Source of the DNA: an uncultured Victivallales bacterium
Lineage (GTDB): Bacteria; Verrucomicrobiota; Lentisphaeria; Victivallales; UBA1829
Direction: 5' to 3'
NCBI GenBank assembly: GCA_944390795.1
Contig: CALXRI010000020.1
Location: forward strand, 1 to 57,513
Length of the DNA stretch: 57,513 nucleotides
Part shown: piece by piece, positions 2,533-6,452 of the stretch
Layout of the letters: each line of letters begins with the position of its first letter
Numbering within the stretch: the first letter of the stretch is position 1
Notes under the pieces: model-generated
Databases searched by the model: none
What the model was told of the DNA's origin: nothing
Seen by the model: only the letters and a program-made list of their open reading frames with translations
Made by a program: the position numbers and the translations under genes

Positions 2533-2557
2533 CAGTTCCCGGATGAACCGGGAACTG
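2533..2557 (-). other. Strong stem-loop between tuf and rpmG, no U-tract
   Basis: The perfect 10-bp inverted repeat CAGTTCCCGG / CCGGGAACTG has a 5-base loop. No T-run follows in the minus direction, so it is not a standard intrinsic terminator. It may be a processing or mRNA-stability hairpin that uncouples the high expression of tuf from the downstream genes. Confidence 0.6.
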
Positions 2558-2574
2558 CGCCGGCGCAATGGAAA

Positions 2575-3783
2575 TTAAGCAAGAATTTCCGTTACGCGGC
2601 CGGAAGCAACGGTGCGACCGCCTTCGCGGATAGCGAAGCGCTGGGTCTTTTCCATCGCGATCGGGGCGATCAGTTCGACCTCAATCGAAACCTTGTCGCC
2701 GGGCATGACCATCTCGACTCCTTCCGGAAGCTTGATGACGCCGGTGACGTCCGTGGTTCTGAAGTAGAACTGCGGTCTGTAGTTGGAGAAGAACGGGCTG
2801 TGACGACCGCCCTCGTCTTTGGACAGAACATAGATTTCAGCGGTGAATTTCGTATGCGGGGTGATGGAACCCGGCTTCGCGAGAACCTGTCCGCGCTCGA
2901 CTTCCTCTTTCTTGGTGCCGCGGAGGAGGCAGCCGATGTTGTCGCCGGCCTGGCCTTTGTCAAGCTCCTTGCGGAACATTTCAACGCCGGTGATCGTGGT
3001 TTTGCTGGTCGGTTTGATGCCGACGATCTCGACAGCGTCGCCGACTTTGACTTCGCCGCGCTCGACTCTTCCGGTCACCACCGTTCCGCGCCCTTCAATG
3101 GAGAACACGTCTTCAATCGGCATCAGGAAGGGTTTGTCAACTTCGCGCTCGGGTTCCGGAACCCATGCGTCGATGGCATCCATGAGCTCCTGAATGCATT
3201 TGCACTCGGGTGCGTTCGCATCGGTCGCCTGCAGAGCCGGATAGGCGGCGCCTTTGATGATCGGGGTGTTGTCGCCGTCGAAGTCATATTTGCTGAGAAG
3301 TTCGCGGATTTCCATTTCGACGAGGTCGAGAAGTTCCGGATCGTCCACAAGATCAACCTTGTTCAGGAAGACGACAATCTTCGGCACGCCGACCTGTTTT
3401 GCAAGGAGGATGTGCTCACGAGTCTGGGGCATCGGGCCGTCAACCGCACTGACAACCAGGATCGCACCGTCCATCTGAGCGGCGCCGGTGATCATGTTCT
3501 TCACATAATCCGCGTGACCGGGGCAGTCGACATGCGCATAGTGACGCTTGTCGCTCTGATACTCGACGTGAGATGTCGCGATCGTCAGAATCTTCGTGGA
3601 GTCGCGGCGTCCCTGGGACTCGGATGCCTTCGCAACCTGGTCATACGGGATGTAGTCCGCCAGACCTTTGAGGTTCTGCACATGGGTGATCGCCGCCGTG
3701 AGCGTCGTTTTGCCGTGGTCAACGTGACCGATCGTGCCTACGTTAACGTGAGGCTTCTCTCTGAGAAATTTTTCTTTGGCCAT
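2575..3783 (-). CDS. tuf: Elongation factor Tu
   Basis: A 402-residue GTPase that brings aminoacyl-tRNA to the ribosomal A site. Visible motifs are the P-loop GHVDHGKT (residues 19-26), DCPGH (switch II) and NKVD, followed by domains 2 and 3 with the C-terminal [13 protein letters not shown]. It is slightly longer than the common 394-396 residues. AAAGGAGGACACGAG precedes the ATG. It is probably transcribed from the promoter upstream of tRNA-Thr. Confidence 0.99.
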
Positions 3784-4326: not shown

Positions 4327-5031
4327 TCACCGAGCCGCCCCGGAAGGGCAAATCACTTTGATCCAGAGCGCCGGAAACATCCACTCCACGCGCCCGCGAT
4401 CCTCCCTGTAATTCCACTTCTCCGACGCTTCCGCCCCGGGAAACGGCTCCAGCACAACACTATCCCCCGCACAGAGCACCCTGCAGACACGCAAACGCGC
4501 CCCGCCGCGCATTCTCAATACCGCAAACGCATCATTTTTCACACGCTCGTCAGCAGCACAGAGCAGAAGAGTCTCCCGGCAGCCGGACAGCAGAGAATCA
4601 CAATCTTCCAGCTTCACAGCAAAACACCTTTTCCTGGCATCGCACAGGAACATTGCCTTTTCACAGGCGAACTTTTCCGCAAATCCGCGAACCGACTCCA
4701 TGACGGGATCATAATTCATCATATCCGCTTCCCGCACCACAGGCACAGACAACACCTGTTTTTCCCCGAACACCCCGTCAAAACTGTCCGCATATTTTTC
4801 ACGAACGACCCCCAGATCGACTTCGCGAAGATTTTCCGCCAGATACGATTCGATTTCCGGATATACACGCCCGCGCCACAAGTCACTGTTGATCCGCCTG
4901 GTTTTTCCTGTCAGCCAGAACAGAACCGTACTGTGCGCAACGCCAATCCGCCGACTGAATGCAAGCACTCCGCCCGCTCTGTCCACAGCCTCCGACAGCG
5001 AGCTGCGGATCACATGATCAATTAAACGCAT
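4327..5031 (-). CDS. HTH regulator with LexA/CI-like C-terminal domain
   Basis: A 234-residue protein. Residues about 19-43 (LAFSRRIGVAHSTVLFWLTG) form a likely Cro/CI-type helix-turn-helix. The C-terminal half resembles an S24/LexA sensor fold: a VKLEDCDSLLSG segment sits where G-D-S-M normally carries the catalytic serine, then strands LRMRGGARLRVCRVL and VVLEPF. The lysine expected in the vKR strand appears replaced by Cys/Val, so self-cleavage is doubtful. The start at 5031 is preferred over one 14 codons upstream because GAGGTG lies 9 bases before it. It may be a phage-type repressor or a domesticated regulator; targets are unknown. Confidence 0.6.
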   Translation of the reverse strand: MRLIDHVIRSSLSEAVDRAGGVLAFSRRIGVAHSTVLFWLTGKTRRINSDLWRGRVYPEIESYLAENLREVDLGVVREKYADSFDGVFGEKQVLSVPVVREADMMNYDPVMESVRGFAEKFACEKAMFLCDARKRCFAVKLEDCDSLLSGCRETLLLCAADERVKNDAFAVLRMRGGARLRVCRVLCAGDSVVLEPFPGAEASEKWNYREDRGRVEWMFPALWIKVICPSGAAR

Positions 5032-5405
5032 AAGGACAGCACCTCTTCGGTTTTCACTTTGAATTCGATTCATGACATTAACATAGCAATAAACATAATT
5101 TTTACAAGCGTGGATATATTTTTATTTTTCTTTTATTTCAATATTTGATTTTGTTTTTGGCACAAATACAATACACGTTTATAAAAAACCGGACAATCTC
5201 GCTTAAATTAAACATGAAAAACAGCATAATAAAATAAAAAATCAAATAAAATAAATTAAATGATAAACACGTAAATCAAATAAATAAAAATAAGTTTCAA
5301 TGTAAATATAAAAAATAAACAAACAGAAAAATATCGTATTTTCCAGATTTTATTTGACGCTTGAAGACAGAAGGAACAACCACAACAATCGAAAGGAACA
5401 ATGTT
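5032..5405. other. Extremely AT-rich intergenic region
   Basis: No gene is seen. From about 5090 to 5350 the DNA is almost pure A/T with A-tracts (for example AAAATAAAAAATCAAATAAAA), in sharp contrast to the GC-rich surroundings. It separates divergent genes and may hold promoters for both, a nucleoid-protein binding site, or traces of transferred DNA. I could not pick one convincing promoter because too many weak matches exist. Confidence 0.7.
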
Positions 5406-5879
5406 ATGTTCGGATGTCACAACTGCGGAAAGAAAATTGAGAGAAACACTCCTTACGCGCAATCCCCCTGAGCAACGTGCAAAACAGAACAGAATCCGAT
5501 GCCGCAATCTCAATATCGGACAGATCCGGCGGAATTCCGGAATCTTCAGATTATGCATCCCGCTTATGAAGAACCCGACGAACAGTCCATGGAATTCCAG
5601 ATCAGAGAGAAGATATTCCGTTCTCTCGCAAAAACCATCCGCCTCCTGACCAAAATGAAAGAACAATATCCGGAAACCTACAAATTCATCGAAGCGAAAA
5701 TGGACAATCCGAGACTCACATACACCGAGCTGGCCGGAATGTTTTCCTGCAAAAAGCAGAATGTTCTTTACCATTTGAAGAAAGCGACGGCAATCTGTCC
5801 GGAACTCCGGAATGCCTTGCTGATCGACGCACGCTTTTCCGGCGGGCATTACGCTCTCCGCGCATCAAAAAGAAGCTGA
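5406..5879 (+). CDS. Zinc-ribbon + HTH protein interrupted by an in-frame UGA
   Basis: From ATG 5406 (AAGGA 8 bases upstream) the frame reads MFGCHNCGKKIERNTPYAQSP, then TGA (5469-5471), then ATCKTEQNP, and continues open to 5879. C4-x2-C7 and C25 would make a standard CxxC...CxxC zinc ribbon if the UGA position (22) were Cys. TGA is one base from TGC/TGT and could also encode selenocysteine. After the stop the 126-residue part starting at ATG 5499 has a helix-turn-helix-like segment LTYTELAGMFSCKKQNVLYH. Alternatives are a nonsense mutation, a sequencing error, readthrough, or translation only from 5499. The gene's job is unknown; neighbours hint at phage origin. Confidence 0.5.
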
Positions 5880-6011: not shown

Positions 6012-6452
6012 ATGACCAGTCACATGACAATTTTGTCCGCGCTGAAAGAGAAATTCGAAACGCTGAAAAACAACAGCGGAAAAGCTCTTTTCACATCTGT
6101 AACAATTGAGACGCGTCCGGTCACGCCGGAAAGCATGTTTGATCTCCACCCTGATATGACGGAATTTCCGGCAGCCGTCCTTGTGCCGGGGGAAACACTT
6201 CCAGCCAACGGAGGTCTGACTGCAACTCTGACTCTGGATCTTTTCCTGATTACGGAAGACTGTCATTCCGACGGAACATCCGGCAGACATCTCAGGCTTC
6301 TGGAAAACATTCTGGAAATTCTGAGTCCGGACTCAGCGGGAAAAGCACCTTCCGCCGGAGGGGCGCATCTTCTGGCGGTCAATGCAAAAACGGAAATGTT
6401 CGGCGATGCCTATCCTGGATGGCGCATCCGCCTGAAAGCCTGTCACGAGTAA
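6012..6452 (+). CDS. Hypothetical protein, possibly phage-tail related
   Basis: A 146-residue protein with no signal peptide or membrane segment. AGGAAGGA lies about 8 bases before ATG 6012. The pattern is an N-terminal helix (ILSALKEKFETLKN), a strand-rich middle (FPAAVLVPG, LTATLTLDLFLI), and a C-terminal GWRIRLKAC strand. It vaguely recalls small phage tail-completion/Gp37-like proteins that begin with a helix and end in beta strands. That resemblance is weak. It lies 132 bases after the UGA-interrupted gene, same strand. Confidence 0.45.
   Translation: MTSHMTILSALKEKFETLKNNSGKALFTSVTIETRPVTPESMFDLHPDMTEFPAAVLVPGETLPANGGLTATLTLDLFLITEDCHSDGTSGRHLRLLENILEILSPDSAGKAPSAGGAHLLAVNAKTEMFGDAYPGWRIRLKACHE

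Follow-up and report, generated by a model that had tools for sequence, protein, structure and literature searches.

Does an in-frame UGA at the place of a zinc-ribbon cysteine announce a new selenoprotein or a recoded codon, or has the gene simply acquired a stop? The question arises in a 57,513-nt contig of an uncultured Victivallales bacterium, analysed here over its whole length and called the window (contig 20 of a 3.44-Mb draft genome of 66 contigs, ~95% complete). From the ATG at 5406 the forward strand encodes MFGCHNCGKKIERNTPYAQSP*ATCKTEQNPMPQ..., with cysteines at codons 4 and 7 (C4, C7), a stop at codon 22 and a cysteine at codon 25 (C25), and the frame stays open for 135 further codons up to a TGA at 5877-5879. 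This is the frame that a first-pass annotation had described, and the supplied sequence confirms it. Our analysis points away from a new selenoprotein: most probably the codon-22 stop is an ordinary nonsense mutation of recent date, or else a sequence error.

The interrupted gene and its relatives

The gene is chromosomal and uncharacterised, and no second copy was found in the window's own genome. Codons 1-21 (5406-5468, forward strand), which hold the first half of the ribbon with C4 and C7, lie upstream of the stop and are conserved in all relatives. The in-frame TGA occupies 5469-5471 (forward strand), and the rest of the frame (5472-5879, forward strand) comprises C25, a linker, a helix-turn-helix (HTH) domain and the terminal TGA. 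Eight nucleotides upstream of the ATG at 5406 is a Shine-Dalgarno-like AAAGGA (5392-5397, forward strand), with a similar AGGA in relatives. The upstream ATG, already favoured by the first-pass annotation, is supported as the true start, since all relatives retain the ribbon. We rejected the ATG at 5499 as the native start: the ribbon is found in every relative, and the corresponding Met32 only within the genus. An extra out-of-frame ATG at 5401-5403, missing in the closest relative (G002), lies just upstream of the start and could compete for initiation.

We searched 137 genomes of the order with an alignment. Twelve of them, counting the window's own, have a single close copy; further matches were weaker. 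At codon 22 all 11 of the other close copies have a Cys codon and none has TGA; the same holds for four relatives on viral contigs (Cys in 4/4, TGA in 0/4). In each of the 11 other close copies the N-terminus matches CxxC-x14-CxxC fully or almost fully, which is the ribbon that had been predicted for a cysteine at codon 22; the window copy lacks the full motif, one Cys having been lost to TGA. Within the genus this zinc-ribbon/HTH protein is 75-94% identical. The closest copy, that of G002 (94% amino acid identity), reads TGC at the site of the window's TGA, a single substitution that is polarised to the window branch.

The conserved HTH-like C-terminal domain is present in the window copy, as judged by identity, by alignment and by the structural model of the G002 protein. 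In that model (mean pLDDT 71.5), residues 62-140 form a confidently predicted helical region that is separate from the ribbon at the N-terminus. We use the name HTH tentatively, on weak matches in Pfam and generic HTH similarity in the PDB (Foldseek). No Pfam or PHROG family was reached for the window protein, and a PDB sequence search with it found no relative. The viral-contig relatives (L107-L110, around 4992-5741) have a longer C-terminus, and three of the four contigs are 164-179 kb long.

Substitutions past the stop show how the frame has been maintained. Against G002, the closest species, dN is 0.037 and dS 1.21 (dN/dS about 0.03). After codon 22 the window branch carries 3 nonsynonymous and 15 synonymous changes, where the neutral expectation is a ratio near 3.7; by a crude parsimony polarisation, the neutral fraction of this branch has an upper bound of about 0.10-0.12. 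These sequence comparisons show that the frame past the TGA kept strong purifying selection until very recently. It follows that the stop is very recent, or is an error, or that the downstream part is still made.

Selenocysteine machinery, UGA usage and the candidate hairpin

The first-pass annotation had raised the possibility of a new selenoprotein, in which UGA 22 would be read as selenocysteine and serve as a structural zinc ligand. The TGA does align precisely with a conserved Cys, and it is followed by a hairpin whose geometry is loosely permitted. The genome, however, provides none of the four parts sought. SelA has no match; SelB has none above the cut-off, the best match being EF-Tu at 2533-3747 of the window; SelD matches reach at most 35 bits against a cut-off of 125; and all tRNA-Sec matches fall below the gathering score, the best coinciding with tRNA-Ser, tRNA-Leu and tRNA-Gly genes. 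SelB and SelD likewise stay below their cut-offs in every sampled genome of the same family. Three genomes of the same order (G053, G054 and G059) pass for SelB, SelD and tRNA-Sec, so the searches work on this order. At ~95% completeness one missing gene would be weak evidence; the absence of all four, together with the family-wide absence of SelB and SelD, is not.

The hairpin offers little help to this reading. The 6-bp inverted repeat proposed as a SECIS element (5495-5520, forward strand) is as described, with arms TCCGAT (5495-5500) and ATCGGA (5515-5520) and a loop that begins with G at 5501. What does not hold up is its significance. The 70 nt that start at 5466 fold less stably than dinucleotide-shuffled versions do on average (z = +0.76). 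Of all TGA triplets in the window, 4-5% are followed by a Watson-Crick stem of at least 6 pairs with this geometry, a share that rises to 19-27% when G-U pairs are allowed, the distance and loop limits being set after the bacterial SECIS consensus. The repeat is thus at chance level, and it is not conserved: G002, the nearest relative, lacks the 3' arm. An Rfam search gave no SECIS match.

A published criterion for selenoproteins asks that two or more different sequences share the UGA, and singletons with TGA opposite Cys are treated as candidates only, owing to sequencing error (PMC1088965). Here UGA occurs in 0/11 other close relatives of the order and 0/4 viral relatives. With TGA in none of the relatives, the machinery not found and the hairpin unsupported, we consider selenocysteine refuted, save for a complete Sec locus in the 5% of the genome that the assembly lacks, and give it almost no weight.

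General reassignment or efficient suppression of UGA in this genome, the other form of recoding, seems just as remote. The in-frame TGA itself is the only point in its favour. Against it, UGA is the commonest stop in the window, ending 28 of 47 genes; prfB is present; and none of the 45 tRNAs typed in the genome has a UCA anticodon. Stop counts, prfB and tRNA anticodons together led us to reject it, and recoding in the wider sense fails on the absent Sec machinery and on the relatives, every one with Cys and none with TGA.

Origin of the codon-22 stop

What remains of the first-pass annotation is its plainer suggestion, a TGC-to-TGA nonsense change or a base-call error, and this is the part that the evidence supports. 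We favour a recent single-base nonsense change of Cys codon 22 to TGA in a conserved single-copy regulator gene, with a probability of roughly 0.7. On this account the codon for the third of the four zinc-ribbon cysteines would have become TGA by one base change, and RF2 would terminate the chain at 21 residues; the normal 157-residue protein would therefore not be made. Termination at codon 22 would presumably be efficient, and the change would be real in the population, not an assembly error. Any residual product would probably come from weak restart at the ATG at 5499 and consist of the HTH domain without the ribbon.

Two other accounts of the TGA were weighed. One is that it reflects a base-call, assembly or strain-mixture error, the gene being intact in the organism itself, with Cys encoded at codon 22. 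The assembly is a 66-contig draft, the frame around and past the stop shows no sign of decay, and a singleton TGA opposite Cys is a known class of error in selenoprotein screens (PMC1088965). On the other hand, in the comparison with G002 the conserved gene pairs of the window showed no further clear premature stop, the remaining flagged ORFs being antisense or start extensions as judged by inspection; the consensus therefore looks accurate, and we regard error as unlikely, although it is the rival that we take most seriously. The other account is that truncation is adaptive or tolerated: restart at the internal ATG would give a functional 126-aa product (5499-5879, forward strand) that has shed the ribbon and whose DNA-binding part is under selection. 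It would explain the selection on the frame downstream of the TGA, it draws on a Met32 shared by 4/4 genus members (and conserved only there), and in the predicted fold the HTH region (residues 62-140) is separated from the ribbon, so that restart at 5499 would yield an HTH-only protein. Yet a good Shine-Dalgarno sequence was not seen directly before 5499, all relatives have kept the ribbon, and a very recent stop explains the selection signal equally well. We judge such a truncation improbable, well behind error.

A recent nonsense change thus remains our preferred reading. In itself the finding matters little: it illustrates that a UGA opposite a conserved Cys, together with a chance hairpin, can mimic a selenoprotein, and that checking the genome's Sec machinery and the homologues settles the question.

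Genomic context, a UAG observation and known systems

The neighbourhood draws attention to a conserved, uncharacterised Victivallales regulator pair with relatives on large viral contigs. A divergent XRE/YdaS-like putative repressor of 248 aa (4327-5073, reverse strand) is a conserved neighbour of the gene family; its homologue adjoins the zinc-ribbon gene in the window and in G001, G002, G003, G020, G041 and G048, and the divergent pair is conserved in different genera and families within the order. The arrangement looks like a domesticated phage-type switch. The element TTTATTTGACGC (5349-5360, forward strand), a putative promoter or operator, occurs once in the window. Upstream of the zinc-ribbon gene, at ~45-60 nt, it is conserved in the window and in G001, G002 and G003, as well as in other genera. 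Downstream is a 146-aa ORF of unknown function (6012-6452, forward strand), which also follows the gene in G002 and G003.

The window and G002 are collinear almost throughout, apart from a 6.8-kb segment present only in G002 and smaller differences near 44.4 kb. The segment (C10 68628-75436 of G002) is missing between 6475 and 6492 of the window, just downstream of the gene. As read from its translations, it encodes an AraC-type regulator, a pseudopilin-like protein and large enzyme-like ORFs. A decaying prophage, which the phage-repressor-like neighbour, the viral relatives and the missing 6.8 kb had suggested, is unsupported, the segment being without phage genes.

Among the relatives, G006, a member of the window genome's family, apparently uses UAG as a sense codon genome-wide, and we find this more interesting than the codon-22 stop itself. 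Across 29,324 aligned codons G006 has 25 in-frame TAGs at 14 loci (for example L111 17672-18151, L121 1016-3223, L122 2319-4124, L140 4425-5510 and L251 6661-10980), compared with 2 in 40,094 codons in the control G011, 0 in 14,709 in G018 and 0 in 11,304 in G000/G002. The first stop after the C-terminal end is TAA or TGA in 64 of 65 aligned G006 genes; in the remaining gene the TAG comes 36 codons past the end. Within this genome, which is 78% complete, prfA was not found and none of the tRNAs typed has a CUA anticodon; prfB was found and itself contains an in-frame TAG. The residues opposite the TAGs include K, Q, A, T, R and others, and three TAGs fall on Gln; Gln as the residue inserted at UAG would be a guess. 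The G006 homologue of the zinc-ribbon gene is interrupted by two in-frame TAGs. We had considered it a case of independent decay in the family and dropped this reading, TAG being apparently sense throughout G006. A 2021 survey gives UGA as the codon in all bacterial stop reassignments then known (PMC8629427), and the titles and abstracts of the literature searched contain phage and eukaryote cases of UAG recoding and no bacterial one. In another genome, G018, prfA was also not found, though in-frame TAGs number 0 in 14,709 codons; a tRNA fragment with a long variable arm, truncated by a contig end of G018 (L176 1-57), has the loop TTCTAAA, which would give a CUA anticodon if the fragment is read as a tRNA.

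Among known systems, the interrupted gene resembles nonsense alleles and young pseudogenes of conserved bacterial genes, which share the single-base stop, the otherwise intact and constrained frame and the intact relatives; the sole peculiarity here is the position of the stop at a zinc-ligand Cys. In bacterial selenoprotein genes, too, a UGA within a CxxC context corresponds to a conserved Cys. The present gene differs from them in having no Sec machinery in its genome, no other UGA homologue and no supported SECIS element, and its UGA falls at a structural zinc-ligand position, not at a redox site. As to its protein, an N-terminal CxxC-x14-CxxC followed by an HTH-like helical domain recalls small zinc-ribbon plus HTH regulators (HTH_20, HTH_24 and the sigma-70 region 4-like HTH). 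Unlike these, the window protein reached no Pfam or PHROG family and matched no PDB relative by sequence, and its gene is paired with a divergent XRE/YdaS-like gene.
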